Source: Nitrospirota bacterium (lineage in GTDB: Bacteria; Nitrospirota_A; Leptospirillia; Leptospirillales; Leptospirillaceae). Taken from it: a stretch of 11,561 bases of DNA. The notes beneath the pieces were generated by a model that had not been told where the DNA came from, did no database searches, and saw only the letters and a list, made by a program, of their open reading frames with translations. Shown here in pieces: positions 3-11,561 of the stretch. Within the stretch, counting starts at the first letter, position 1. Each line of letters begins with the position of its first letter. The position numbers and the translations under genes were made by a program. Where the stretch lies: the NCBI GenBank assembly GCA_021838585.1, contig JAKCDE010000032.1, forward strand, positions 1-11,561. Direction: 5' to 3'.

Positions 3-770
3 CAGGAGGGACTCGACTTTACCTTCAAGACGGTCCAGAAGGCGTCGCTGGCGCACCTGACGGTCAACGGTGTCCCGGTTCAGTCGGAGTCGAACGATGT
101 GGCCGACGCCATTCCCGGCTCCGTCATCCATCTTCGCCAGACCACGGGGCCGACCCCGACAACGGCCTCGATCGTCCACAACACCAAGACGATCAAGACG
201 AATGTGGGGGCCTTCGTCAAGAGTTACAACAGTCTTCTTGATTTTCTCGACAAGGAGACCCGGGTGAATCCGGCCACCGGACAGGGAGGCCCCCTGCTGG
301 GAGCCTATTCCGTCGTGGATTTGCGCAATCGCCTGGGAACGGTTCTGACGAGGCCCCTTCCGGAAAAGGTCCAGGGAAAGTTCAGGACCCTGGCCGATGT
401 GGGGATCACCTTCCAAAGAAATGGCCATCTGTCTTTTGATTCCGGAAAGTTCGACAAGGCTCTGGCCTCGAACTACGATGATGTGGTCCATCTCATGACC
501 GGCCAGGGGGCCACTCCGGGAATTGTGGCGGGGGTCCACGACCTCCTCATGGAATTTGCCAACCCGGCCAGCGGCCCCTTGGCGGGGGAGATCTCGGACA
601 TCAACGATCAAGAGAGGACGAACGTCCGGGAGATGACCCGAAAGCAGGACGAGCTGGCCAATCTCAAGGATCAGCTTGAGGAGAAATATTCCGGGCTTCA
701 GGGGCTGCTGGGAGGATTGAACCAGAAGCAGGCTTATGTTCAGCAGCAAATCGCCCGAGGAGTGCTCTAG
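3..770 (+). CDS. fliD: Flagellar filament cap protein FliD (hook-associated protein 2), C-terminal part
   Basis: Partial gene: the reading frame is open from the first bases, so the N-terminus lies upstream and 255 residues are visible. FliD forms the cap at the tip of the growing flagellar filament and helps exported flagellin fold into place. The visible part begins near the family's 'sLTVNGVPV..ESN.vaDAIPGsvihL' stretch (about residues 17-45). It continues through the 'VGAFVKSYNSLLDFLDKET' segment and the 'LADVGITFQRNGHLSFDSG' segment, both typical of the FliD C-terminal domain. The last roughly 55 residues (about 195-250) are a heptad-rich coiled coil ending in 'QKQAYVQQQIARGVL', as expected for the leg region that contacts the hook. 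fliS follows 47 bases downstream, the usual fliD-fliS order. The gene probably belongs to a flagellar operon whose promoter is outside the window. Family assignment is confident. Confidence 0.93.
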   Translation, partial: QEGLDFTFKTVQKASLAHLTVNGVPVQSESNDVADAIPGSVIHLRQTTGPTPTTASIVHNTKTIKTNVGAFVKSYNSLLDFLDKETRVNPATGQGGPLLGAYSVVDLRNRLGTVLTRPLPEKVQGKFRTLADVGITFQRNGHLSFDSGKFDKALASNYDDVVHLMTGQGATPGIVAGVHDLLMEFANPASGPLAGEISDINDQERTNVREMTRKQDELANLKDQLEEKYSGLQGLLGGLNQKQAYVQQQIARGVL

Positions 771-789
771 GGGAGGGAGCGTCCCTCCC
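771..789 (+). repeat. Perfect inverted repeat directly after the fliD stop codon
   Basis: GGGAGGGA (771-778), loop GCG (779-781), TCCCTCCC (782-789): eight perfect GC-rich pairs starting on the base after the fliD stop. No T tract follows, so it does not look like a normal intrinsic terminator. It could limit read-through, protect the 3' end of fliD mRNA or mark a processing site before fliS. Confidence 0.6.
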
Positions 790-817
790 GACGATCCTCC
801 TATGACAAGGATGTGAG

Positions 818-1270
818 ATGAACGCTTACGCCGCCGCAACCTATCGGGAAACCCTCGAGAGAACCCTCCCTCCGGCAGATCTTCTGATCCGTCTGTATGA
901 GGGGTCGGTCCGTCTTGTGGACATGATGAAAGAGGCCATGGTAAACGGCGACATCCCGCGCCGCTCTGATGCCGTCAATCGGTTGACGGGGATCTTTTCG
1001 GAGCTGGCGTCGGCGGTCGACGGCCAGGAGCCCAAGGAGCTTTCTGACTCCCTTGTCTCTCTCTATCTCTTCCTCATCCAGGAGGTGACCTTGGCCAATG
1101 TGGCCGGCGAGGTCGAGCGTCTGGGCCCTGTCAGGGAGATTCTGGTGGATCTTCTGTCGACATGGAAGGCTGCCGCCTCCTCTTCTCGGGGAGGGTCGCT
1201 TCCCTCCTCCCCGGCCAATGCCTTTCCCGAGGGAGGGGTTCCGAAACGAACCCTGTCGGTGCGCGGATGA
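818..1270 (+). CDS. fliS: Flagellar export chaperone FliS
   Basis: 150 residues, close to the family's usual 125-150. FliS binds the C-terminal helix of flagellin in the cytoplasm, prevents early polymerisation and delivers flagellin to the export gate. The N-terminus 'MNAYAAATYRETLERTLPPADLL' followed by 'IRLYEGSVRLVDMMKEAM' matches the family pattern (NAY.., then L..LY.GA.rfi). The four-helix core runs to about residue 117, with 'SLYLFLIQEVTLANVAGEV' and 'VREILVDLLSTWK' as the last helices. Residues from about 118 to the end form a Ser/Gly/Pro-rich tail not needed for the fold. The start is supported by AAGGA at 807-811, six bases before ATG. The stop codon overlaps the next start (ATGA at 1267-1270), so the two genes are probably translationally coupled. 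The call is confident. Confidence 0.92.
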   Translation: MNAYAAATYRETLERTLPPADLLIRLYEGSVRLVDMMKEAMVNGDIPRRSDAVNRLTGIFSELASAVDGQEPKELSDSLVSLYLFLIQEVTLANVAGEVERLGPVREILVDLLSTWKAAASSSRGGSLPSSPANAFPEGGVPKRTLSVRG

Positions 1271-1764
1271 GCCTCCCCGGTGCCAGTCTTCCCGGACCTT
1301 CGGAGACTCTTTCGGTGAAGGGAGCGGGGTCGGAGACAAAAGGCCCCTCCAACACCTCTTCTGAGGGGCCTTCCAGCAGTGCGGACATTGCCAGGGCGGC
1401 AGAGGACTTCTTCTTCGAGGTGGGCTCCCTTCTGGAATTTCTCCATCCCGAGGGAGCGGAAGGAAGCGCTCCTCTCTCCCTTGCCCGGGTCGAGGAGATG
1501 GATCTTCGTCCCCTTCTCCTGGCGCAGGCCGCGGTTGACCGAATCGGGGCCTGCGCCCTGGCCACCCTTCCTCTCCCGGATCTGCTTCTTCTCTCCCACC
1601 GCCTCGACCGTCTCACCTCTGCCCTCGCCCCCTTCGCAGCCTCAGGGGGCCCTCTTGCCTCCCGAATCGCCGCCATTACCGGCCAGGGCCCTCACGGAGC
1701 CTATCGCAAGGCGGGCCGTGATTCCGGGCCGCTCTTTGAGCGCAAGATTCTTGGTCGGGGGTAA
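1267..1764 (+). CDS. Unidentified small protein coupled to fliS; possible second flagellar chaperone
   Basis: 165 residues. I do not recognise the family. The first 40 or so residues are low complexity (Ser, Gly, Pro, Glu). From about residue 40 the protein is predicted to be mostly helical and leucine/alanine-rich, with stretches such as 'FFFEVGSLLEFLHP' and 'LLLAQAAVDRIGACALATLP'. It ends in a basic tail ('AYRKAGRDSGPLFERKILGRG' region). No signal peptide or membrane segment is obvious. The ATG at 1267 was chosen because it overlaps the fliS stop as ATGA. There is no convincing Shine-Dalgarno sequence, which fits re-initiation after fliS, and the longer in-frame ATG at 1162 lies inside fliS and also lacks one. 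The position after fliS, the size and the helical make-up are like FliT- or FlgN-type export chaperones, but this is inference from context only. A perfect inverted repeat lies inside the low-complexity part (1340-1372). Confidence 0.65.
   Translation: MSLPGASLPGPSETLSVKGAGSETKGPSNTSSEGPSSSADIARAAEDFFFEVGSLLEFLHPEGAEGSAPLSLARVEEMDLRPLLLAQAAVDRIGACALATLPLPDLLLLSHRLDRLTSALAPFAASGGPLASRIAAITGQGPHGAYRKAGRDSGPLFERKILGRG
1340..1372 (+). repeat. Perfect 10-bp inverted repeat inside the gene after fliS
   Basis: AAGGCCCCTC (1340-1349) and GAGGGGCCTT (1363-1372) pair perfectly around a 13-base loop. On the opposite strand the arm runs on into TTTTG, so it resembles a bidirectional terminator stem. It lies within the low-complexity N-terminal coding part of the 1267-1764 gene. 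It could act as an attenuator when translation after fliS is poor, or be a former intergenic terminator absorbed into the gene. Confidence 0.55.
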
Positions 1765-1801
1765 TCCTCTCGACCACCCTCTCCCGACGTCAATGTTCTG
1801 A

Positions 1802-1853
1802 CGGGAAGAAATCTCCTGCCATTCTCAGAAACCGGGAAAAAATCTCCCATTCT
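1802..1853 (+). repeat. Imperfect direct repeat upstream of the glycosylation operon
   Basis: Copy one is 1802-1825 and copy two is 1833-1853, repeating with a 31-base period. Both read CGGGAA-R-AAATCTCC, then (tgc in copy one only), then CATTCT. Apart from the three inserted bases there is a single mismatch (G1808 versus A1839). The copies lie about 120-170 bases upstream of the predicted sigma-54 start, where enhancer-binding activators usually bind, so they are candidate activator sites. Confidence 0.55.
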
Positions 1854-1859
1854 TTTTTT
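1834..1859 (+). terminator. Weak intrinsic terminator candidate after the fliDS genes
   Basis: GGGA (1834-1837) can pair with TCCC (1845-1848) around a seven-base loop, and a run of seven T follows at 1853-1859. The stem is only four pairs, so termination would be inefficient. It overlaps the second copy of the direct repeat, and the hairpin may be incidental. Confidence 0.3.
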
Positions 1860-1876
1860 CTCGTCTGCTCCTTCAT

Positions 1877-1897
1877 CTGAATTTCTCTGAAATTTCT
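1877..1897 (+). repeat. Short tandem repeat, about 10-base period
   Basis: CTGAATTTCT (1877-1886) is followed directly by CTGAAATTTCT (1887-1897). The period is close to one DNA helical turn, and the region is A/T-rich compared with its surroundings. It lies between the direct repeat and the sigma-54 promoter, where DNA bending would help an activator reach the polymerase. The role is inferred. Confidence 0.35.
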
Positions 1898-1944
1898 TTG
1901 CCCACAGTGTCTTTTCTTCGTGGTTCCCCCTTGTTTCTGCAGGC

Positions 1945-1960
1945 TGGCATGGATCGTGCT
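1945..1960 (+). promoter_or_regulatory. Sigma-54 (RpoN) promoter, -24/-12 type
   Basis: TGGCATG-GATC-GTGCT matches the sigma-54 consensus TGGCAYR-N4-YTGCW in 11 of the 12 defined positions. The invariant GG (1946-1947) and GC (1958-1959) have exactly the required spacing. Transcription should start near 1970-1971, just ahead of the Shine-Dalgarno sequence at 1972-1978, giving a leader of only about 13 bases. It would drive the glycosyltransferase run from 1984. Sigma-54 control is common for flagellar operons in Gram-negative bacteria. Confidence 0.7.
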
Positions 1961-1968
1961 TTATGCAG

Positions 1969-1983
1969 GGCAAGGAGGTTGCC
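1969..1983 (+). promoter_or_regulatory. Hairpin presenting the Shine-Dalgarno sequence of the 1984 gene
   Basis: GGCAA (1969-1973), loop GGAGG (1974-1978), TTGCC (1979-1983), with the ATG directly after. The whole Shine-Dalgarno core sits in the loop. CAAGGA fits the core of the CsrA recognition pattern (GGA in a hairpin loop). A transcript starting at 1971 would lack part of the 5' arm, so only read-through RNA would form the full hairpin. The regulatory role is inferred. Confidence 0.4.
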
Positions 1984-2949
1984 ATGAACATCCTGATGAT
2001 GTACACGTCCATGCCCCATACGACCGGTGCCTACCTGGAAAAGGCTCTCAGAAAGGTCGCCACCGTCAAAACCTGCGGACCCACCATCGCCGACTGGACG
2101 ATAAGGGCCTGGGACCTGGACGCCATCGCCGACCGGATCACTCCCCACGATATCGATTTGAAGGAGGGAACGCTCGAGGAGGTCAAAAAAGGGCTGGGAG
2201 GTTTTCGGCCGGACTGGCTCCTCTTCGTGGAGAGCGGCGTCTGGTTCGAGATGCCCATCCTCTCGGACCCCTCTCTCCCCAAGGCCTGCTATCTCATCGA
2301 TACCCATCTCCAGGCGGCGGACCATCTCCAGATCGCCAGCCGCTTCGACGTCGTCTTTCTGGCCCAGAAGGCCTATGTTGACATCTTCCGCGAACGCCTG
2401 GGAAAGCCGGTCTTTTGGCTTCCTCTGGCCTGTGATCCGGAGATCCATCGCCCCCATGAAGTTCCGGAAGTCTTCGATATTGCGATCTGCACCTCTCCCG
2501 GGAAGACGGACAGGCGTTCACGGCGTCTTGCCCGGCTGGGCATCCGCTTCAATGTGGGGGTTCGTCGGCTTTTCTTCGAGGAGATGGCCCGGTTTTTGTC
2601 CTCGTCCCGCCTGCTCTTCAATTCGGCCGTCAAGGACGACCTGAACATGAGGGTTTTCGAGAGTCTGGCCATCGGCAAATGTCTGCTGACAGACTCCGTT
2701 CCGGGACTGGCCGACCTGTTTGTTCCCGATGTCGATCTGGTGGTTTACGAAGATGCGGACCTGGTCGACCGGGTCCGCTTCCTTCTTGACCACCCTGAGG
2801 TTGCCGATCGCATCGGAGCCCAAGGACGAAAGAAGGTTCTTGCGCATCACACCTACCATCACCGGGCCCGATCGATCGTCCGGATCCTTTCAGAAGGTGC
2901 TTCCTTCAAACCACAAGGAGTCGACCATGTTGCGCATTCTTACGTTTAA
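1984..2949 (+). CDS. CgeB-type glycosyltransferase
   Basis: 321 residues. A cytoplasmic GT-B glycosyltransferase of the CgeB/Glyco_trans_1_2 type, presumably moving a sugar from a nucleotide donor to a flagellar or surface glycan. The N-terminal half begins 'MNILMMYTSM' and contains 'GGFRPDWLLFVESGVWFEMP' (about residues 71-90), as in proteins of this type. The C-terminal half carries the family signature: 'FNSAVKDDLNMRVFESLAIG' from residue 212, then a Leu/Thr-Asp segment and 'YEDADLVDRVRFLLDHPEV', ending in 'RKKVLAHHTYHHRARSIV'. No signal peptide or membrane segment is seen. The start at 1984 was chosen for AAGGAGG at 1972-1978, five bases ahead. The alternative ATG at 1963 has no Shine-Dalgarno sequence and lies upstream of the predicted sigma-54 start. 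It is the first gene of the glycan run and overlaps the next gene by 23 bases. Donor and acceptor sugars cannot be read. Confidence 0.82.
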   Translation: MNILMMYTSMPHTTGAYLEKALRKVATVKTCGPTIADWTIRAWDLDAIADRITPHDIDLKEGTLEEVKKGLGGFRPDWLLFVESGVWFEMPILSDPSLPKACYLIDTHLQAADHLQIASRFDVVFLAQKAYVDIFRERLGKPVFWLPLACDPEIHRPHEVPEVFDIAICTSPGKTDRRSRRLARLGIRFNVGVRRLFFEEMARFLSSSRLLFNSAVKDDLNMRVFESLAIGKCLLTDSVPGLADLFVPDVDLVVYEDADLVDRVRFLLDHPEVADRIGAQGRKKVLAHHTYHHRARSIVRILSEGASFKPQGVDHVAHSYV

Positions 2950-5260
2950 CTGGCATGAAGGATACATCTCCCTTTTGGGCAAGCTCCCGATCACCTTCGA
3001 CATCGTCGAGAGGACAAAGGGCGGATACGAACGATGGATGACCGAGTTTCGTCCCTGTCCACGAGGATCCCGGATCGTCGACTTCAAGACGGCCATGGGC
3101 CATCTGGCCCGGGAGGAGTACGATGCCATCATTTGCCACGACATGAGCGACCTGCTGCTCACGCGCAAGTCTCCGGTTCCTCAGTTCATGGTCTTTCACA
3201 ACCGACTCGACACCATGATTGCCTTGGGGAAAAATTCCATCGATCCTCGGGAGTACCGAAAGGCCCTGTCTGAGCTGATGTCCCAGGTGAGCGACCTCAC
3301 GCCGGTCTTCATCTCCGCCTCAAAGAAAGAGTCCTGGGGATTTGCCGGTCCGGTGATCTTGCCGGGAATCGATCCGGCCGAATGGGGAGGTTATGACGGG
3401 TCGCTCGACCGGGCTCTCCGGATCGGGAACTTCATTGAGGAGCGGGACCTCATGTTGGGAGCTACCCTGTCAGGTCAGGTTCTCGACGGCATTCCCCACA
3501 CCACTCTGGGGCTGAACCCCCGGATTCCCGGAGCGCATCCCTCCCGGAATCTTGAGGATCTGAAGGAGCAGATGCGCCATCATCGCCTCCTTCTCCACAC
3601 GACGGTCGAACCCTGGGAAGACGGATACAATTTCTCCCTTCTCGAGGCCATGGCCACCGGGATGCCGATCGTGGCGCTGACGCATTCCGGCTCGCCCGTG
3701 AAGGAGGGCGTCAACGGCTTCCATGCAGAGCGTGTCGAGGATCTGAAGGATCATGTGAAGACACTTCTCGGCAATCGGGCGTTGGCCCAGGAGATGGGAG
3801 CCGCCTCCCGGGAGATCGTGGCACGGGAGTTCCCTCTTGATCGCTTCCTGGAAAGCTGGGAGCGGCTCATCAACCAGAAGGTCGCTGTCTGGAAGCCCAA
3901 GCAGGTCTATCGGAAGGAACGGGGAGAGGTCATTGACCGAATCCCCGCCGGCGCGAATCGCATCCTCGACATCGGATGCGGCGCGGGATCCATGGGACGA
4001 GGAATCCGGACGCGATGGGGGAATGTCACCCTGGTGGGGATCGAGAAGGATGCCGCCCGGGGATTTGAGGCCAAGGCGTTCTATGACCGGGTGATTGTGG
4101 CCGATGCGGCGACGTGGGAGCCGGACTTCACGGAGGAGAGCTTCGATGCCATCGTCATGGCCGATGTTCTCGAGCATGTGGAAGATCCTGTCAGTCTTCT
4201 GAGAAAGTATGTCCCCTACCTTTCTCCTCAGGGCGTTCTTGTCCTCTCGGTCCCCAACATCCGCTACCACGAGATCCTCGGAGGGCTGGCCCAGGGACGG
4301 TTCGACTATCAGGAGCAGGGAATCCTCGACCGCAGCCATCTCCGCTTCTTTACCCGCAAGACCTTGGTGGAGCTTCTCGAGCAGACCGGTCTTCAGATCG
4401 AAACTCTGGGAGCCAATGTTTCCAGCGAGTTCTCGAAGATGGCCGAGGAACTCGCCCGTCGGGGAGAGTCGCGGACCGATATTGACCTTGGAAGTATCGT
4501 TCTTCGGGATCAGTCCACGGAGGAGATCCGGGACCTTTTTGTCATGCAGTATCTGGTCACAGCCCGGCGACGGGTCTTCGGGATCATCGAGAAGGTCGAC
4601 GACATGATTGGCTCGGGGATTTCCGAGGGCGTGGAAGAGCTCCTTTTTTCGGCCCTGGCGGATCCGGGGCTGACCCGCGAGGAGCGGGGAGAGGTCGAGA
4701 TCAAACTCGGCGAAATCCTCTCTCGCAAGGGGGATCTCCCGGGAGCTCGCCACGCCTTCGAGCGGGCGATTCCCATGGTTGCCGACGAACGGGCCTATCA
4801 GGGGCGGGCGGTGGTGGCCCTTCTGATGGGCGACTTTGCCGACTCCCTCGCCGACTTCAAGCGTGCCTTCGAGAAAAATCCCCGCTCTCAAGCCGCCCTT
4901 TCCGGCTTCGGGATGGTGTGCCAGGAGCTTCGAAACTATGAAGAGGCGGTCTACTATTACGACCAGTCCTTGGGAATCGATCTCGACCAGGAAGAGGTGC
5001 TGCGGCTTTTGGTGGATGTGGCGCGCGCCATCGGGAGACCCGAGGCGGCGATTGGACGGGTTCGGGAGTTTCTGCTCCGCCATCCCTTCAAGAATGGGTT
5101 CCGGGCGCTCTATGCCACGCTTCTCGAGGAGTCCGGGCAACACGAAGAGGCCTTTCATGTGGCCCGGGAGATCCTCGCGCGGGATCCGAAGAATAGTGTG
5201 GCCCTTGGCATTGTCGAACGGACGGAGTCCGCAGTTCCTGCTCTGGCCCTCAAGGCCTAG
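2927..5260 (+). CDS. Three-part protein: GT4-like glycosyltransferase, SAM methyltransferase and TPR repeats
   Basis: 777 residues, a fusion of three modules. Residues 1 to about 325 resemble a GT4-type glycosyltransferase. The acid motif region is E231-D232-G-Y-N-F-S-L-L-E240 followed by 'AMATGMPIVAL', where Asp232 stands at the place of the usual first Glu of the E-x7-E motif. Residues about 335-560 are a class I SAM-dependent methyltransferase (Methyltransf_23-like): motif I 'ILDIGCGAG' at 346-354, an acidic residue in 'VGIEKD' near 370-375, 'DVLEHVEDP' near 413-421 and 'LSVPNIRYHE' further on. Residues about 588-758 hold about five TPR units, likely for protein contacts. The start has AAGGAG at 2915-2920, six bases ahead, and overlaps the previous gene. 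The protein probably adds a sugar and methylates it, or methylates the chain end, within the same complex. All three modules look intact. Confidence 0.85.
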   Translation: MLRILTFNWHEGYISLLGKLPITFDIVERTKGGYERWMTEFRPCPRGSRIVDFKTAMGHLAREEYDAIICHDMSDLLLTRKSPVPQFMVFHNRLDTMIALGKNSIDPREYRKALSELMSQVSDLTPVFISASKKESWGFAGPVILPGIDPAEWGGYDGSLDRALRIGNFIEERDLMLGATLSGQVLDGIPHTTLGLNPRIPGAHPSRNLEDLKEQMRHHRLLLHTTVEPWEDGYNFSLLEAMATGMPIVALTHSGSPVKEGVNGFHAERVEDLKDHVKTLLGNRALAQEMGAASREIVAREFPLDRFLESWERLINQKVAVWKPKQVYRKERGEVIDRIPAGANRILDIGCGAGSMGRGIRTRWGNVTLVGIEKDAARGFEAKAFYDRVIVADAATWEPDFTEESFDAIVMADVLEHVEDPVSLLRKYVPYLSPQGVLVLSVPNIRYHEILGGLAQGRFDYQEQGILDRSHLRFFTRKTLVELLEQTGLQIETLGANVSSEFSKMAEELARRGESRTDIDLGSIVLRDQSTEEIRDLFVMQYLVTARRRVFGIIEKVDDMIGSGISEGVEELLFSALADPGLTREERGEVEIKLGEILSRKGDLPGARHAFERAIPMVADERAYQGRAVVALLMGDFADSLADFKRAFEKNPRSQAALSGFGMVCQELRNYEEAVYYYDQSLGIDLDQEEVLRLLVDVARAIGRPEAAIGRVREFLLRHPFKNGFRALYATLLEESGQHEEAFHVAREILARDPKNSVALGIVERTESAVPALALKA

Positions 5261-5274
5261 CTTCGGAGGCGATC

Positions 5275-6894
5275 GTGGGAGCGAAGGTTCTGGTCGTTCA
5301 GGAGGCTCGTCTCGGAGACCTCATCCAGAGTGAACCCCTGATCGAGCGACTCCGAAAAAAAGGGGAGACCCCCATGCTCCTGGTTCGTCCTGGAGTCGTG
5401 GAGGGGGCGAAGGCCCTGGCGCTGGCTCCGGAGGTTGTCTCTTGGCCTGATTTTGGAAATCCGGCCGTGCCGCTTTCCCTCTTCGAGCGGATTTCGGGGG
5501 CCCGGGATTTTGTCCGGAAGATGCGCCGGGAGAGACTGTCCCGGGTCATCGTCCTCAACCACCATGGAACGGGAGCCGCTCTGGCCAAGCTTCTGGAGAT
5601 CCCTGTCTCGGGCTTTGACCACCTCTTCGATCGGGGGGATGGCACGGTCGAGCCCCTCTCCGGGTGGCCGGCCTATCTGGTGGCCTCATCGCGGGGCGTC
5701 CGGGCCCTTAATCGCATCCATCTCTCCGACATGTGGCAGGGATTTGCCGGACCCGGAACCTTTGCTCCCCGCCCCGCGTCCGCTCTTGGGAGAGCCTCCG
5801 GTCCGACGGTGGTGGTTCTGGGAGGGCGAAGCCCCTTCCGGAGGCTGGCTCCGGAAGCACTGTCCCGGCTGGTTGCCGCATTGCTCCGGATAGACGGCCA
5901 CCCTGTCATTCTTTCCGGGGGCTCCGAAGACCGGAAATTGGGGGAGGCCCTCGAAAAGGAATGCGGCTCTCGGGTGAAAAATACCGCCGGACTCACCGGC
6001 GTGTCCGAGCTTGTCTCTCTGGTTGCCGAGGCGGGAGTGGTTCTCTCGCCCGATACGGCGACGCTCCATCTGGCCGCATCGTTGGGGGTGCCCACTGTCG
6101 GGCTTTTCTTTGCCAGCGCTCTTCCCTTCGAGACCGGAGCCTATCGGGAGGGGGCTCTCTCGGTCGTGTCGGGGATGTCATGTTATCCCTGCGCCGGGGA
6201 GGGATCGTCCTGCGCGTCCCTTTCCTGCCGGAATGATCCCTCCCCTGAGATCCTGGCCCAGATTGTGGCGGGAATCCGCCGGGGCGAGGCTCCCTCCGGG
6301 ATTGCCGCCCGACTGTCGGGATTTCTGACGGGGAGCCAGCTCTTTGTCGCCCGGGAGACTCCCTCGGGGTTGTTGCAGGAGGCCATCACTCCCTTTTCCT
6401 TCTCAAAGGAACACGTCCTGGCCCTCCTCTTCCGTCGCTTTGTGATGCGTTATCTCAATCCGGAGACCCCTCTTCCCACCCTCTCCCAAGAGATGTCCCT
6501 ATCGGGCATGAGTCTTGCTAGAAATGTCTTGCAAGGGAATCGGGGGTCGGGGATCTCCGTCAAGGGGGAGGGGCCGATGAAGGATGAGGAAATCGATCCT
6601 CTCTGGTTTGTCCGTCTCGAGCGGGGAATTGAGCTCTATCTGGGTCTCCGGGAACGATCCCTTCACGCGGGAGAGCGGGAACGAATGGTGGAGAGGTTGG
6701 CGGTGGACTACCCGGCGATCTGGCCACTCCTGCACTTCCTGGAGCGAGTGGAGGGAGGTCGGGGGGATCTCCCCGGACTTCTTCGCGCCGGAGCGGCCCT
6801 TTCCTGGGAGGCCATGAGCGCCGGTCGAATTCTGGGAAGCGGATCGGAGCGGGAGCGTCCCGAAAAGGAGGAGCGTTATGTGGCAATTCGATGA
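5275..6894 (+). CDS. GT9 (heptosyltransferase-type) glycosyltransferase with C-terminal extension
   Basis: 539 residues; the usual GT9 length is about 330-360, so about 190 residues are extra. GT9 enzymes use ADP-heptose or related donors, classically in LPS core synthesis. The N-terminus 'AKVLVVQEARLGDLIQSEPL' has the glycine-aspartate turn of the family. The donor-site signature is S258-P-D260-T-A-T-L-H265-L-A-A-S-L-G followed by 'VPTVGLF'. A four-cysteine motif follows: C303-x2-C306-x6-C313-x4-C318. Residues from about 345 form the extension, with 'QLFVARETPSG' and a helical 'HVLALLFRRFVMRYL' stretch that resembles the extension of the second GT9 protein in this run. The start is GTG at 5275 with GGAGG at 5265-5269, five bases ahead and 14 bases after the previous stop. 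Context points to flagellar glycan rather than LPS core, but LPS remains possible. Confidence 0.85.
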   Translation: MGAKVLVVQEARLGDLIQSEPLIERLRKKGETPMLLVRPGVVEGAKALALAPEVVSWPDFGNPAVPLSLFERISGARDFVRKMRRERLSRVIVLNHHGTGAALAKLLEIPVSGFDHLFDRGDGTVEPLSGWPAYLVASSRGVRALNRIHLSDMWQGFAGPGTFAPRPASALGRASGPTVVVLGGRSPFRRLAPEALSRLVAALLRIDGHPVILSGGSEDRKLGEALEKECGSRVKNTAGLTGVSELVSLVAEAGVVLSPDTATLHLAASLGVPTVGLFFASALPFETGAYREGALSVVSGMSCYPCAGEGSSCASLSCRNDPSPEILAQIVAGIRRGEAPSGIAARLSGFLTGSQLFVARETPSGLLQEAITPFSFSKEHVLALLFRRFVMRYLNPETPLPTLSQEMSLSGMSLARNVLQGNRGSGISVKGEGPMKDEEIDPLWFVRLERGIELYLGLRERSLHAGERERMVERLAVDYPAIWPLLHFLERVEGGRGDLPGLLRAGAALSWEAMSAGRILGSGSERERPEKEERYVAIR

Positions 6895-8680
6895 AAACGT
6901 ATTCCGCAACAATCTCGATGTCTTTGGCCAGGGAGCTCTGCGGGAGGTTCTTGTCCGCCCCGACCGGAGCCGGGAACGGTGGGAGATCGTTGCCTCCAAG
7001 GAAGGATCCCCCACCCTTCTCTGGGATGGGGCGAGTCTCCACAGCCGATACGATCCTGTGGCGGAAGGCGGGCGCTGGGCCGAAGAGATTGTCGGCAAAC
7101 TTCCTGAGGATGCCCGGGGGATCCTGGTCCTGGGGCTGGGGCTTGGATATCATGTCGAGGCTCTGCTTGCCCGGACCCCCCTTCCCGTCGTTGTTTTTGA
7201 GCCCTCTCCCGATATCCTTCGAGCCTCTTTCCGTCTTCTCCCCTGGCACCGCCGGTCGGGGCAGATCCGATTTGTCACAGATCCGGGGAGCCTTCGAGGT
7301 CAGGTGGAGGGGTGGTTCATGGCCTCCCATGCTCCGTCGGAGAAGGTTCGCCCCGATGCCTACCGGTCTGTCAGGAATCTTGCGGGAGCGTTCTCCGGAG
7401 CGTCCGACTACTCCCTGCGGGTGCTGGTCGTCTCTCCTGTTGCGGGAGGCTCCTATCCCATCGCCCACGGAGTGGTTCGGGCCCTCGCCGGGATGGGGCA
7501 CCGGGCCACTCTTTTTGATGCCGGAGAATTTGCCGGCTCCCTTCGGGCCATTGGCGCCCAAAGCCGGATCGACATGCACCGGGCCCAGCTTCGGGGGCTC
7601 TTCCAGAACTTCATGGCCGAGATGATCCTCGCCCGCGTCTATCAGGAGAAGCCCGATCTCATCGTGGGACTCGCCCAGTCGCCTCTCTCCACAGAGCTTC
7701 TGGAACGGCTTCGCGGGATGAACATCCCCGTGGCCTATTGGTTTGTCGAGGACTTCCGGATTGCCACCTATTGGGAAAGGGTGGCCCCGCTGGTCACCTC
7801 CTTTGCCGTGATCCAGAAGGGGGAGTGGCTTCCCCGCCTGGAAGCCCGGGGACTCACCAACGTTCTCTATCTCCCCACGGCGGCCGACCGGACAATCTTT
7901 CGGCCCGAGCCCGGAGAAGGGGAAGATCCGGTAAGATTTTCGGCCCCGCTGGCTTTTATGGGAGCGGGGTATTACAACCGTCAGCACTTTCTCCGGCATC
8001 TTGCGGATCTGGGGCTGGGGATCTGGGGAGCCGACTGGGAGAGCAGCGATCCCCTGGGCCCCTATCTCCGATCCCCCGGTCGACGGATCGAGCCCGGCGA
8101 AGCGGCCCAAATCTATAGAAACTCCATGGTGAATCTGAATCTCCACTCCTCGGTCTATCACAGAGGTGTCAATCCCGACGGGGATTTTGTCAACCCTCGC
8201 ACCTTTGAAATTGCCGCCTGCGGAGGTTTTCAGCTGGTCGACCGGCGGTCGCATCTCCCCGAGCTTCTTGTCCCGGAGGAGGAGGTGGCCGTCTTTGAGG
8301 ACGAAGAGAGCTGTCGCAAACTGGTGCGACACTACCAGGCAAACCCGGCGGAAAGGGCGGCCATGGCCCAGGCGGGACTCAGGCGAACACTGCGTGATCA
8401 CACCCTCGAACGGCGGATGGAGATGTGGCTGGACCATCTCTACGCGCAGGGATTCCGCCCGAAGGGGGCGGAGTTTCCAGGACGCCAGAGTGTCCCGGAG
8501 CTTGTCGCGGCGGCCAATGGGGATCCTGAACTTTCCGGTTTTTTCGATAGGTTCCGATGCTTCGGTTCGGTGGATCTCGATGATCTGGAACGGGGAATTC
8601 GTCCTCAGGAGGCGCCCCTCTCCGAGACGGAGGCTGCGGTGCTTCTTTTGCGGGAGTTTGCCCGGGAGGTCGAGGCATGA
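6878..8680 (+). CDS. Large CgeB-type glycosyltransferase with N-terminal nucleotide-binding-like segment
   Basis: 600 residues. The C-terminal half is a CgeB/Glyco_trans_1_2-type GT-B fold: 'PVAYWFVEDFRIATYWERV' mid-protein, then M417-V-N-L-N-L-H423, N439-P-R-T-F-E-I-A-A-C-G-G-F, 'LPELLVPEEEVAVF' and a terminal helical region with 'TLERRMEMWLDHLYAQG'. A segment starting near residue 180 ('LRVLVVSPVAGGSYPIAHGV') begins the GT N-terminal Rossmann half. Ahead of it, residues 1 to about 170 form an extra domain with a glycine-rich strand-loop-helix 'GILVLGLGLGYHVEALL' (about 81-97) and 'VVVFEPSPDILRAS'. That pattern is like the N-terminal part of Maf-type motility accessory proteins. The start has AAGGAGG at 6865-6871, six bases ahead, and overlaps the previous gene by 17 bases. 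Its role is likely transfer of a sugar in flagellar glycan assembly; the sugar is unknown. Confidence 0.82.
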   Translation: MWQFDENVFRNNLDVFGQGALREVLVRPDRSRERWEIVASKEGSPTLLWDGASLHSRYDPVAEGGRWAEEIVGKLPEDARGILVLGLGLGYHVEALLARTPLPVVVFEPSPDILRASFRLLPWHRRSGQIRFVTDPGSLRGQVEGWFMASHAPSEKVRPDAYRSVRNLAGAFSGASDYSLRVLVVSPVAGGSYPIAHGVVRALAGMGHRATLFDAGEFAGSLRAIGAQSRIDMHRAQLRGLFQNFMAEMILARVYQEKPDLIVGLAQSPLSTELLERLRGMNIPVAYWFVEDFRIATYWERVAPLVTSFAVIQKGEWLPRLEARGLTNVLYLPTAADRTIFRPEPGEGEDPVRFSAPLAFMGAGYYNRQHFLRHLADLGLGIWGADWESSDPLGPYLRSPGRRIEPGEAAQIYRNSMVNLNLHSSVYHRGVNPDGDFVNPRTFEIAACGGFQLVDRRSHLPELLVPEEEVAVFEDEESCRKLVRHYQANPAERAAMAQAGLRRTLRDHTLERRMEMWLDHLYAQGFRPKGAEFPGRQSVPELVAAANGDPELSGFFDRFRCFGSVDLDDLERGIRPQEAPLSETEAAVLLLREFAREVEA

Positions 8681-10533
8681 GCGCAGGGAAAGGGGATCAC
8701 TCCATTGTTTGGCAAGGGGCAGGAGCGGGAATGCGGATTCTCATCGTTGCCATGACACGCATGGGGGACCTCTTCCAGATGGCTCCCATGGTGGCCTCCC
8801 TCCGGGAGCGCCATAAAGGGTGCCGTATCGCGCTGGTGGCCTACCGGGAGTTCGGAGAGGCGGCCGCTGGCTTGGACCTTTTCGATGAGCTCTATCTCGT
8901 CGATGCCCTGGCCCTTCGAAAGATGATCTACGACGACACGGTCTCCCTTCGGGACAAGATCCGGAAGGTCAAGGAAATGTGCGCCGACTGGAGCGGGGCC
9001 GCCGTCGACCTTCTGATCAATCTGACTCCGAACCGGATCGGTGCGGTCCTGGGTTATCTCGTCGGAGCCCGGGAGGTCCGGGGGGTGACGCTGACACGGG
9101 ACGGATTTCGCGCCTTTCTCGATCCCGCCATTGCATACTTTGGCCAGATGGTCCAGAACCGCCCCTACAACGACACCAACCTCGTGGACCTCTTTCTTCG
9201 GGTCGGGCAGGTCCCTCCGCCCCAGCGCCTTGTTCTCGCAGAGAAGATGGGGGGGCAGGACTCCGGTCTTCTCCCGGAAGGGCGAACATGGATCGCCGTT
9301 CAGACCGGCGCCTCGGTGGAGATCAAGCGCTGGCCAGAACACGCTTTTGTACGGATGATTGCCCATCTCCTCTCCCGGGAGCCCGATTGGGGGGTCGTCC
9401 TGATCGGGGCGGGAGCGGAGGAGATGTCCCGAAATCGGCGCATTGTGGCCGCTCTCGAAGACCGTTGGTCCGCGGGACGGATCCTGAACCTTACGGGTCA
9501 GACAAGCGTGTCGGAGTTGGCGGGAGTCCTCCGGCGAGTCGCCCGCCTTGTCTCGAACGATACCGGGGCGATGCATGTGGCAGCGGCGATGGGAACTCCG
9601 GTCGTCGCCCTTTCATTTGCCAATCTTTACTACCACGAGACAGCCCCCTACGGCGAGGGCCATGTGGTGATCCAAAGCCGAAGGCCCTGCGCTCCCTGCG
9701 GTCTCGATGCCGTCTGCCTGAACCCTCTCTGTCGCGAAGAGATCGATCCGGAGTGGGTGGCCCGTCTGGTGGTGGCCCTGGGCGCGGGAGAGAGGAGTGG
9801 CGCGGGAGGGGAAGGGAACGAAGAACGCCAGAAGGTTCAAAGAGAATCGCTTTTGTCCTTTCTTTCCGAAAATCCCCCCGGTCCGCAGATCCTTGTGGCC
9901 CGTTCGGAGTTCGATGGCCGCCGCAGGCTCCTGTATCGCCCTCTCACACGCTACCCGATGGGGGTCGAGGATCTCTTTCGGGCTCTCTATCGCCAGATCT
10001 GGTCGATGGAGTCCGGGGCGCTTGTCGACTGGGAGGGCCAGAGGCGCATCCTGGTCGAGGATTTTGATCCATCGGGGCTTCCCCGATCAGCCTGGGAAGA
10101 GGTGCGCTCCCAGGCCCTTGAGCTGGGGGGGATGTTCCGGGAGGGAGAGAGCCTATGCTTCTCCATCTCCCAGTCCTTGTCGGAAGGAGGGATCGGGGAG
10201 TCGGACAAGGAGGCCCTTTCCCGGACGGCTGCCTCCCTTGAGGAGCTTGACCGAAAAATTCGCGAAAAGGGCTGGGTGGCCCCTCCGCTGGGGCCAGTGA
10301 CCACCCTTTTCGGGATCGAGAAGGAGGCGGTGGCCATCGATGACCCCCTCCGTCTCATTGAAATGGTTGAATCGATCGGGAAAGTCTATCGCCAGGGTGT
10401 TCTTCGGGTCGACCGACTGATTCGTCTGGCTGACCGCTGGTTTTCGGAAAATGGCTCTCCCGCGGAAAAGAGAGAGCAGGACGTCAGGGCCAAGGGGCTC
10501 CGCCCAAGGGCGGAGCGAGCCTTGCATGGGTAA
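8677..10533 (+). CDS. Second GT9 (heptosyltransferase-type) glycosyltransferase with long C-terminal extension
   Basis: 618 residues, with about 240 residues beyond a normal GT9 domain. The GT9 core starts at 'MRILIVAMTRMGDLFQMAPM' (residue 19). The donor-site signature is S293-N-D295-T-G-A-M-H300-V-A-A-A-M-G followed by 'TPVVALSF'. The four-cysteine motif is C338-x2-C341-x5-C347-x4-C352, as in the GT9 protein at 5275. The extension has 'QILVARSEFDGRRRLLYRPL' near residue 403 and 'VEDLFRALYRQIW', which resembles the matching part of that paralogue. The start is uncertain. ATG 8677 overlaps the previous stop as ATGA and has GGGAGG at 8664-8669; ATG 8731 has AGGAG at 8721-8725 and begins exactly at the GT9 fold, so the true protein may be 600 residues. 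The last codons run through a strong inverted repeat (10492-10523). It probably adds a second heptose-like sugar. Confidence 0.85.
   Translation: MSAGKGDHSIVWQGAGAGMRILIVAMTRMGDLFQMAPMVASLRERHKGCRIALVAYREFGEAAAGLDLFDELYLVDALALRKMIYDDTVSLRDKIRKVKEMCADWSGAAVDLLINLTPNRIGAVLGYLVGAREVRGVTLTRDGFRAFLDPAIAYFGQMVQNRPYNDTNLVDLFLRVGQVPPPQRLVLAEKMGGQDSGLLPEGRTWIAVQTGASVEIKRWPEHAFVRMIAHLLSREPDWGVVLIGAGAEEMSRNRRIVAALEDRWSAGRILNLTGQTSVSELAGVLRRVARLVSNDTGAMHVAAAMGTPVVALSFANLYYHETAPYGEGHVVIQSRRPCAPCGLDAVCLNPLCREEIDPEWVARLVVALGAGERSGAGGEGNEERQKVQRESLLSFLSENPPGPQILVARSEFDGRRRLLYRPLTRYPMGVEDLFRALYRQIWSMESGALVDWEGQRRILVEDFDPSGLPRSAWEEVRSQALELGGMFREGESLCFSISQSLSEGGIGESDKEALSRTAASLEELDRKIREKGWVAPPLGPVTTLFGIEKEAVAIDDPLRLIEMVESIGKVYRQGVLRVDRLIRLADRWFSENGSPAEKREQDVRAKGLRPRAERALHG
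10492..10523 (+). repeat. Strong inverted repeat at the end of the second GT9 gene
   Basis: GCTCCGCCC (10497-10505) and GGGCGGAGC (10508-10516) are perfect nine-base arms with only AA between them. Outer arms AAGG (10492-10495) and CCTT (10520-10523) extend the stem after a small internal loop. The end of the gene is coded within it and no T tract follows. It lies 45-76 bases before the next start and could slow ribosomes or polymerase or stabilise the upstream mRNA. Confidence 0.55.
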
Positions 10534-10567
10534 ACCCGGCAAGAACGCCGATAAAAAGGAGTCAGGG

Positions 10568-11248
10568 ATGGAAGAGACAAGACAGACAAAAAATGGTCAG
10601 ATTCTGATGGACGGAAATCCGGTTTCCTGGGGCTGGAACGAGGGAGAGTCCTTGGCCGATGTCCTCGACAGGGTCATCGGAGACATGTCCAAGGAGCGGA
10701 CGATCGTGGCGGTGAAGCTCGATGGGAGTCCTGCCAGTCGCGCCCAGGTTGCCGCCTGCGCCGGAGGGGATTTTCTCCTTGAGATCGAAACGGAGGCGCT
10801 CTCGCTTCTTCTTGAGGAGGTGCTCTCCGACCTCACTCACCACATCGATAGCCTTCTGGTGGTTTTTGGAGAGATCGGTGCAAATCTCCGCCGGGGAAGC
10901 CTGGCCGCCGTCTTTGGATCTGCCGAAAGAAAGGAAGAGACGGGCGGTGTCTACATGCAGGGACTTGAAGGAATCGTGGCGACACAGGTTCTTGTCGAAG
11001 AGGTCGGTCGTATCGAGCGACAGGCGGGCCACGACACCTTTCGCCTTTGCTTTATCGAGGAAAATGATCGTATCGACTCGATCCTTTCTGGCATGCTCGG
11101 TGCCCAGGAAAATCAGGACTGGATTCTTCTTGCCGATCTCGTGGAGTATGAGATCCTTCCCATCCTCCAGCGAGGCCGGGGCAAGGCAGCAGAGGCCTTG
11201 GCCCGGCAGATCGATGTTCTTCGCGGAGAAAATCGGGTCGTTGCCTAG
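10568..11248 (+). CDS. Unidentified protein at the end of the glycosylation run
   Basis: 226 residues, family not recognised. The first part (about residues 8-52) alternates strand-like and helical stretches: 'NGQILMDGNPVSWGWNEGES', then 'LADVLDRVIGDM', then 'RTIVAVKLDGSPAS'. This is a pattern that could be a small beta-grasp-like domain, by inference only. The remainder is strongly helical, with 'LSLLLEEVLSDLTHHIDSLL' (about 78-97) and acidic C-terminal helices such as 'ILLADLVEYEILPILQRG'. There is no signal peptide or membrane segment. The ATG at 10568 was chosen for AAGGAG at 10556-10561, six bases ahead. An in-frame ATG at 10526 overlaps the previous gene by eight bases but has only a distant GGAG. 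The 34-base gap to the GT9 gene suggests cotranscription, so it may be an accessory of the glycan enzymes or a flagellar factor. Nothing in the sequence decides. Confidence 0.75.
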   Translation: MEETRQTKNGQILMDGNPVSWGWNEGESLADVLDRVIGDMSKERTIVAVKLDGSPASRAQVAACAGGDFLLEIETEALSLLLEEVLSDLTHHIDSLLVVFGEIGANLRRGSLAAVFGSAERKEETGGVYMQGLEGIVATQVLVEEVGRIERQAGHDTFRLCFIEENDRIDSILSGMLGAQENQDWILLADLVEYEILPILQRGRGKAAEALARQIDVLRGENRVVA

Positions 11249-11296: not shown

Positions 11297-11324
11297 TTGA
11301 CGGAGGTCGTTTTCGTGATAAAAT
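11297..11324 (+). promoter_or_regulatory. Sigma-70-type promoter
   Basis: TTGACG (11297-11302), a 16-base spacer and TAAAAT (11319-11324), each matching five of six consensus bases. The start of transcription would be near 11331-11333, leaving a leader of about 48 bases before the ATG at 11380. It separates the following gene from the sigma-54 run. Confidence 0.6.
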
Positions 11325-11364
11325 AAAAGTGAGCTAATAGGGACGTGCGAAGTCTGCTTGTGGT

Positions 11365-11381
11365 ATCAGGAGGTTCCTGAT
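11365..11381 (+). promoter_or_regulatory. Hairpin enclosing the Shine-Dalgarno sequence and start codon of the 11380 gene
   Basis: ATCAGGA (11365-11371), loop GGT (11372-11374), TCCTGAT (11375-11381): seven perfect pairs, with a possible T-G pair outside. The Shine-Dalgarno sequence AGGAGG (11368-11373) lies in the 5' arm and loop, and the first two bases of the ATG lie in the 3' arm. This folding would hide the ribosome site. GGA near a hairpin loop also fits a CsrA target. The mechanism is inferred. Confidence 0.5.
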
Positions 11382-11561
11382 GAGTATCTCGCCGCTAAGG
11401 AGTTCGGAAATCATGACAGGTCAGGGGGGAGGGTCGTATGGGCCGCTCTCTGCCGCTGCCACGATTTCGCCTTTGCGACCGCCGGTTCAAGGAGGCGCTG
11501 GCTCCTCCACGGGAGATCTTTTGCAAGTGCCACTTCTCGCCACGCCCAAACACTCACGATC
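11380..11561 (+). CDS. Start of an unidentified gene, cut off by the window end
   Basis: Sixty codons are visible with no stop; the gene continues beyond the window. ATG at 11380 has AGGAGG at 11368-11373, six bases ahead, and a sigma-70-type promoter about 55 bases upstream. The visible part begins 'MSISPLRSSEIMTGQGGG' and is rich in Ser, Gly, Pro, Ala and Leu with little secondary structure. 'ISPLR' occurs twice, at residues 3-7 and 29-33. There is no signal peptide. Disordered N-termini like this occur in several flagellar proteins (for example hook-length control or FlaG-type proteins), but no family can be named from this part. The reading frame is supported by its start signals and by being open throughout. 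Confidence 0.6.
   Translation, partial: MSISPLRSSEIMTGQGGGSYGPLSAAATISPLRPPVQGGAGSSTGDLLQVPLLATPKHSR

Follow-up and report, generated by a model that had tools for sequence, protein, structure and literature searches.

How would flagellin be glycosylated at a locus where a run of glycan enzymes follows the genes for the filament cap and the flagellin export chaperone? The question was raised by a stretch of 11,561 nucleotides from an acid-mine bacterium (Nitrospirota, contig JAKCDE010000032.1; the whole stretch is called the window hereafter), in which fliD, fliS, five glycan enzymes and a small conserved gene form one compact run (window 3-11248). Genes were identified by Pfam and NCBIfam scans of translated frames; every named gene was open and intact and all lay on the plus strand (Table 1). 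The original prediction, made from the window's sequence, had described two GT9 enzymes, two CgeB-type enzymes and one glycosyltransferase-methyltransferase-tetratricopeptide repeat (GT-MT-TPR) protein in a tight run after fliD-fliS. These genes proved intact and supported by Pfam, and their order recurred in relatives. That account had overlooked the Maf-type N-terminal domain of the second CgeB-type enzyme (CgeB2), the short flagellin upstream of the run in relatives and the existence of a Maf alternative.

Judging from sequence comparisons, flagellin, cap and glycosyltransferases probably form a cassette in which CgeB2 takes the place of Maf. The flagellar link of the module is strongly supported. 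The new point is the Maf-CgeB chimera together with the exchange of cassettes, and the architecture of this central enzyme points to an undescribed route of flagellar sugar-coating. A literature search, whose coverage left subscription journals largely outside, turned up no study connecting CgeB enzymes with the glycosylation of flagellin, and a study of flagellin modification in Enterobacteriaceae (PMC4875605) contained neither CgeB nor heptosyl in its text.

The Maf-type domain of CgeB2

CgeB2 was above the Pfam cut-off for both PF13524 (8e-36) and PF20157 (Maf_flag10_N; 2e-8), and it alone among the window enzymes was matched by the latter. Compared with Maf N-termini by hhalign, its residues 1-175 gave a probability of 99.9 (E 1e-31, 169 columns). 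Control comparisons of the same residues gave 0.5 with the methyltransferase domain of the operon, 8.1 with reversed Maf_N, 0.2 with the Maf core and 0.2 with the GT4 domain. A methyltransferase identity for the N-terminus was not supported by the first of these control values. The catalytic part of CgeB2 reached a probability of 0.5 against the Maf core, and the whole-profile comparison between CgeB2 and Maf gave 99.4 (97.2 for the window's family alone). At E up to 0.001, PF13524 was matched in all 34 aligned CgeB2 members and PF20157 in 19 of them, and a hidden Markov model (HMM) of Maf_N built from eight Mafs alone matched 71 of 80 CgeB2 proteins. The top match of the CgeB2 profile in PDB was 5mu5 (E 0.004), also matched by the Maf from locus L269 (E 8e-4); we take this entry, whose record says uncharacterized, to be the Magnetospirillum Maf.

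The central Maf_flag10/MptE-like domain (PF01973) was unmatched in the window CgeB2 and above cut-off in none of 61 relatives, three of which had matches below it. Because this defining catalytic domain of Maf is missing, the cassette was counted as a variant of flagellin glycosylation outside the Maf family. It resembles the systems in which Maf (MAF_flag10) is accompanied by nonulosonic acid genes through its homologous N-terminal domain and its location beside flagellin. It differs from them by the lack of PF01973 and of any nonulosonic acid gene among the window proteins scanned with Pfam (no genome was searched for NeuB). With the CgeB family, known for a spore glycan protein, CgeB2 shares the catalytic domain PF13524, and it departs from that family by its extra Maf N-terminus and its flagellar context. 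Relatives of CgeB2 detected at E up to 1e-5 numbered 2164. Names among the best 120 listed never mentioned flagellin: they read spore maturation protein CgeB, CgeB family protein, glycosyltransferase, spore protein YkvP, hypothetical protein and, once, response regulator. If CgeB2 indeed replaces Maf, many of these relatives would gain a function, and the Maf N-terminal domain would be a module found in combination with two catalytic domains unrelated to each other, offering a direct way to test what it does.

Linkage to flagellin and exchange with Maf

Stretches were taken from 36 places, 20 of which represented 18 members of the Leptospirillum-like family to which the window belongs. The whole order fliD, fliS, cgeB1, GT-MT-TPR, GT9a, CgeB2, GT9b and orfZ was found in 16 of these 18 genomes; of the two incomplete loci, one was on a contig that stops at CgeB2 (G021) and the other was spread over three contigs (G015). 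The CgeB2 protein matched at 99% in the closest of the genomes searched (G001) and also at 99% in the Nitrospirae metagenome-assembled genome YF4.bin33. A short flagellin was located upstream of the run in relatives, and flagellin and CgeB2 shared one contig in 16 of 19 family genomes. CgeB2 was also absent from the two family members in which neither fliS nor flagellin was matched (G009 and G019, 89% and 64% complete).

A survey of 345 genomes of the phylum (thresholds of E <1e-100 for CgeB2 and E up to 1e-22 for flagellin) detected CgeB2 in 112 genomes and flagellin in 179; four more genomes had weaker, partial CgeB2 matches alone. Flagellin was present in 110 of the 112 CgeB2 genomes versus 69 of the 233 without CgeB2 (Fisher p 5e-39, uncorrected for kinship). 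In G153 and G170, the two remaining CgeB2 genomes, the start of CgeB2 and a contig end were 349 and 1944 bases apart. Both genes were on the same contig in 103 of the 112 genomes, at a median distance of 4.3 kb and within 11 kb in 96 of them. The claim of a flagellin-linked glycan assembly locus, for which a search of the gene order in other genomes had been proposed, was thereby borne out: linkage to fliC, fliD and fliS holds phylum-wide.

Flagellin size followed the same division. One flagellin was considered per genome, the best-scoring one listed (for G017, that on the CgeB2 contig), and the limit of 345 amino acids (aa) for a short flagellin was chosen after inspection of the data. Stop-to-stop frames below this limit were found in 109 of 110 CgeB2 genomes versus 12 of 69 without CgeB2, and frames of 450 aa or more in 45 of these 69. 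The sole long frame accompanying CgeB2 (G017, 507 aa) holds a 275-aa flagellin when counted from its methionine. Counted in this manner, complete flagellins in the fetched loci measured 274-284 aa with CgeB2, against 482-533 aa for the long type; four loci without a start pattern and the frames of 611-655 aa were left out of the count. Within family f10, no frame exceeded 341 aa in the 68 genomes with CgeB2, and the eight without it all had frames of 626-655 aa. In one genome (G157, locus L304) CgeB2 was in two pieces, one with two internal TGA stops; its flagellin was short.

What occupies the locus in the absence of CgeB2 was seen in flagellin loci from 40 genomes, selected by hand across mixed families, 18 of which were without CgeB2. 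The CgeB2 loci of family f10 displayed a GT9-type gene, CgeB2, GT9b, fliC, fliD and fliS, the module thus lying 5' of flagellin, versus 3' of fliS in the window's family. The ten loci of families f10 and f26 without CgeB2 had flagellin frames of 611-655 aa and FliD frames of 777-828 aa, and in all ten the fetched region included a full Maf-like protein. Eight of these Mafs seeded the HMM that picked up the other two. The two submitted to Pfam were far above the PF01973 cut-off (5e-44 and 7e-39) and both ended in TPR repeats, and PseD, an NCBIfam model for flagellin modification, was matched by all eight seeds, with the single match displayed falling under its cut-off. At L269, where five proteins were scanned (Maf included), Maf adjoined NeuB, a UDP-GlcNAc 2-epimerase, an epimerase and a polysaccharide-type dehydratase. 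Both Maf loci of f26 also carried a GT-MT-like gene. Three genera (g14, g41 and g92) each included genomes with and without CgeB2. On a tree of FliD from the 40 loci the cassette label changed once and the family label nine times (five labels, minimum four); therefore cap and glycosyltransferase set move together across families.

Beyond the window's family, named genomes were scanned with a CgeB2 alignment of 11 rows; 520 stretches were confirmed, the best 80 of which were analysed. By record title these belonged to Nitrospirota, Nitrospinota, Desulfobacterales and other deltaproteobacteria, Calditrichota, Latescibacterota, Zixibacteria and unplaced bacteria. If CgeB2 acts as proposed, predicted flagellin glycosylation would reach environmental groups that have been little studied, Nitrospirota and Nitrospinota among them. 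GT9b was immediately 3' of CgeB2 in 77 of the 80 loci and beside it in 79. Of the three exceptions, one ended with its contig; in another, at a contig start, a short GT9a-labelled frame preceded GT9b, and in the third a GT9a-like enzyme did. OrfZ was present in 53 loci, and fliC, fliD or fliS lay inside the fetched flanks of 29. For the remaining 51 loci, 49 genomes were searched for FliS (two incomplete family loci, L090 and L096, were left out); it was found in 47 of the 49, and on the CgeB2 contig in ten, about 10 to 40 kb away. Flagellin (E up to 1e-25) was found in 37 of 40 CgeB2 genomes, most of them from other phyla or unplaced. Thirteen of the 49 genomes had two FliS matches each (G064, G066-G068, G070-G072, G076, G080, G081, G084, G087 and G092), the second match of G068 being interrupted by a contig end.

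Proposed mechanism and rival explanations

From these computed results on gene order, linkage, domain homology, exchange with Maf and flagellin size, we infer flagellin as the acceptor, together with the sequence of the transfers, the sugars and the part played by the Maf-type domain. The filament cassette would consist of a short flagellin, its cap and its chaperone and, behind them, a set of enzymes of its own for O-glycosylation in the cytoplasm, expressed from a sigma-54-type promoter. The Maf-type N-terminal domain of CgeB2 would recognise flagellin before FliS takes over, and the GT-B domain would put the first (or core) sugar on serine or threonine; the three-domain Maf structure, as given in an extract of PMC11339370, served as the model carried over to CgeB2. 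GT9b would then attach a further sugar, whose donor may be ADP-activated. Lengthening and methylation of the chain would fall to GT9a, CgeB1 and the GT4-methyltransferase-TPR protein, the TPR region perhaps helping to hold flagellin and orfZ acting as a small partner. The glycan would finally cover a filament built of flagellin with the D0/D1 core only. Short glycosylated flagellin as such is already known, since extracts of the literature describe some bacteria without outer flagellin domains (PMC8306008) and a Kurthia flagellin with six O-glycosylated residues (PMC6802091).

A wider form of this proposal is tentative and, in our judgement, somewhat doubtful. According to it, flagellin would be O-glycosylated by a second system that depends neither on Maf nor on nonulosonic acids. 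A heptose-containing glycan on D0/D1-only flagellin would be started by a CgeB GT-B enzyme fused to a Maf-type recognition domain; bacteria of several phyla would swap whole cassettes with the Maf system, and the glycan coat would replace the outer flagellin domains.

Several results weigh against a cassette in which CgeB2 replaces Maf. The chief one, directed against a purely flagellar role, is the placement of the module in Nitrospinota: fliS was on the CgeB2 contig in none of 17 loci, some of these contigs exceeding 200 kb, and flagellin in only one (G097, at 22 kb). L137, the one Nitrospinota locus whose neighbours were widely scanned, was flanked by housekeeping and transport genes. The Maf-type domain was not detected throughout, 15 of the 34 aligned members missing PF20157 and the Maf_N HMM missing nine of the 80 proteins (L095, L097, L098, L099, L138, L148, L151, L153 and L161), members of the window's family among them. 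In the solved Maf structure, going by the same extract of PMC11339370, the N-terminal domain is a degenerate Rossmann fold of unclear function. The exchange itself was imperfect: a CgeB-type frame lay near Maf in G192, L160 had a Maf-like frame plus CgeB2 in one locus (8014 and 9872), and no full Maf was present in the fetched stretch of any of the eight f11 and f20 loci without CgeB2 (flagellin 495-522 aa). Twelve of the 69 flagellated genomes without CgeB2 also had a short flagellin (G053, G140, G151, G195, G199, G203, G207, G221, G312, G363, G372 and G374), so that short flagellin does not require the CgeB2 system. All listed frames were at most 338 aa in the 37 further CgeB2 genomes with flagellin, a set of CgeB2 genomes only, with no CgeB2-less comparison set. 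As the cassette label changed once, the FliD tree gives no independent replicates of the size association, and when flagellin size was set against CgeB2 in an independent-pairs test, this tree offered a single pair. Glycosylation of these flagellins is, moreover, itself a prediction.

The alternative that survives best shares much with the preferred explanation and names another first enzyme: flagellin would be glycosylated, with the chain started by the GT-MT-TPR protein in the manner of FlmG, and CgeB2 and GT9b would extend it. We regard this as unlikely, though it deserves to be kept in view. In an extract of PMC7591256, Caulobacter FlmG (TPR plus GT-B) binds flagellin via its TPR region, and the window likewise has a GT-B-type enzyme with TPR repeats in a flagellar setting. 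The two were likened by description only, and in the window protein the TPR region is C-terminal, the order being reversed, and is joined to GT4 and methyltransferase parts. A GT-MT-TPR match (E <1e-40) was found in 45 of the 80 loci, versus GT9b beside CgeB2 in 79. TPR repeats also end both Mafs scanned with Pfam, and the Maf domain was matched in CgeB2 and in no other window enzyme. FlmG and Fgi-1 are treated in PMC7591256 and PMC7874193; the latter contains neither heptosyl nor GT9.

The presence of two GT9 enzymes bears both on the sugars and on a second alternative, according to which the enzymes make a surface polysaccharide or a lipopolysaccharide (LPS) decoration and their flagellar neighbourhood reflects motility co-regulation only. 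Both GT9a and GT9b were above the PF01075 cut-off. Invariant positions were R28, G30, D31, D295, G297, H300 and four cysteines in 78 of 78 GT9b proteins, and D15, D260 and, again, four cysteines in all 18 GT9a proteins; D31, D295 and G297 are present in the window GT9b, and GT9a carries Asp-Thr-Ala where GT9b has Asp-Thr-Gly. The catalytic role of these residues is assumed by analogy with WaaC. Every NCBIfam heptosyltransferase model that matched either enzyme did so below its cut-off (best for TIGR02195: 40 and 68 of 135 bits for GT9a and GT9b). LPS heptosyltransferases belong to GT9, and structures of such enzymes in PDB were matched by the GT9b profile. No entry for TibC, a protein represented in PDB, was among the matches listed for this profile at E up to 1, and no sequence kinship of GT9b to TibC rather than to LPS enzymes was found. 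The autotransporter heptosyltransferases TibC/AAH (PMC4358343) are alike in being GT9-like, in their four-cysteine motif and in the protein acceptor proposed for them; GT9b is unlike them in that its profile matches LPS enzymes. A TibC-like iron finger (CXXC...C...C in both GT9 enzymes) was considered and dropped, as were the four cysteines as evidence, because five of five ordinary GT9 frames (6 loci) also have them.

Although the Nitrospinota loci, unlinked to fliS and in L137 set among housekeeping and transport genes, are in line with an LPS role, as is the GT9 kinship, we consider that role improbable. Separate GT9 arrays were present elsewhere in several of 13 family genomes searched; CgeB2 has a Maf-type N-terminus, and Maf stands at the flagellin locus where CgeB2 is missing in f10 and f26. 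Flagellin accompanied CgeB2 in 110 of 112 genomes of the phylum and in 37 of 40 mostly of other phyla. Homologues consistently placed in LPS loci, which would have spoken against the original prediction, were not encountered, the Nitrospinota module off the fliS contig notwithstanding. Tandem arrays of ordinary GT9 genes were seen at G013:C14, G003:C73 and G004:C68 and are probably LPS heptosyltransferases.

The heptose-containing, methylated flagellin glycan originally put forward fared unevenly: its attachment to the flagellin locus stood, and the heptose part was not backed by the scores of the GT9 enzymes, both under the NCBIfam heptosyltransferase cut-offs. ADP-heptose epimerase HldD (TIGR02197 above cut-off), the sole heptose gene searched, was present in 10 of 16 family genomes, several of them incomplete; a heptose donor is therefore plausible, and heptose remains a plausible sugar of the predicted glycan. 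A methyl group may be present on it; the methyltransferase part of the GT-MT-TPR protein matched PDB 3cc8 (1e-28).

Least probable, by a narrow measure, is that CgeB2, short flagellin and short FliD are a mere co-inherited block with no functional tie: FliD tracks the cassette with a single change, as this would predict, yet short flagellin also accompanied CgeB2 in the 37 of 37 further genomes above, Nitrospinota with fliS-unlinked CgeB2 included, and the alternative block includes a known type of flagellin glycosyltransferase.

Other features of the window

Table 1. Features of the window, with positions counted from its first nucleotide
Feature	Position	Strand	Support
fliD (filament cap), C-terminal part; start precedes the window	3..770	+	PF07195 2e-40; FliD frames 483-484 aa in closest relatives
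fliS (flagellin export chaperone)	818..1270	+	PF02561 1e-21; NCBIfam TIGR00208 above cut-off
orfX, 165 aa, predicted open reading frame translationally coupled to fliS (ATGA overlap with the fliS stop)	1267..1764	+	
Sigma-54-type promoter site TGGCATGGATCGTGCT	1945..1960	+	10/12 consensus positions
cgeB1, CgeB-type glycosyltransferase, 321 aa	1984..2949	+	PF13524 1e-28
GT4 + S-adenosylmethionine (SAM) methyltransferase + TPR protein, 777 aa	2927..5260	+	PF13692, PF13489, TPR families
GT9a, divergent GT9 enzyme with C-terminal extension, 539 aa	5275..6894	+	PF01075 1e-14
CgeB2, CgeB GT-B catalytic domain preceded by a Maf N-terminal domain (about aa 1-175); predicted flagellin glycosyltransferase	6878..8680	+	
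GT9b, GT9 enzyme of 618 aa, almost always beside CgeB2	8677..10533	+	PF01075 3e-23
orfZ, 226 aa	10568..11248	+	PF26154 family by precomputed annotation of relatives

From cgeB1 to orfZ the genes were spaced by -23 to +34 bases. The spacing between orfX and cgeB1 was larger (219 bases) and included the sigma-54-type site TGGCATGGATCGTGCT, scored against a sigma-54 consensus. Its score was equalled in about 8% of single-base shuffles of the 714-base interval, so that the single site is weak evidence. Among 18 relatives scanned, including many close kin, 14 had a TGGYA...TGC site as their top match, no more than about 65 bases from where cgeB1 was called to start, and two further ones had it as a tied second match; none was found in the scanned stretch of L047 and L050. 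A candidate site for the promoter named in the original prediction is present and, weak by itself, recurs in relatives.

OrfX had no match in the Pfam scan, and the matches to it were weak and confined to near relatives; its position is the one usually taken by fliT. OrfZ likewise had no match in the Pfam scan of the window protein, PF26154 being precomputed for 67 of 67 relatives listed. Its AlphaFold2 model (pLDDT 86) can be read as a beta-grasp-like N-terminus followed by a helical-bundle C-terminus. The family displayed a conserved DWIxLADLxEYE motif, and only some relatives had the N-terminal domain. A FliS-like chaperone (profile probability 0.3) and a Maf relative (0.2) were both rejected as identities for orfZ.

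In G006, one of the 16 family genomes with the whole gene order, cgeB1 and the GT-MT-TPR gene were each broken over two frames (L055:6090-9337), through assembly error or decay. Fusions of cgeB1-like and GT-MT-like parts (2119 and 1626 aa) were found 3' of fliS at L064:7517-13873 and L065:11500-16377, respectively. Downstream of orfZ, the window displayed a sigma-70-like site (11297-11324) and further open frames (11358-11561) that extend past its end.

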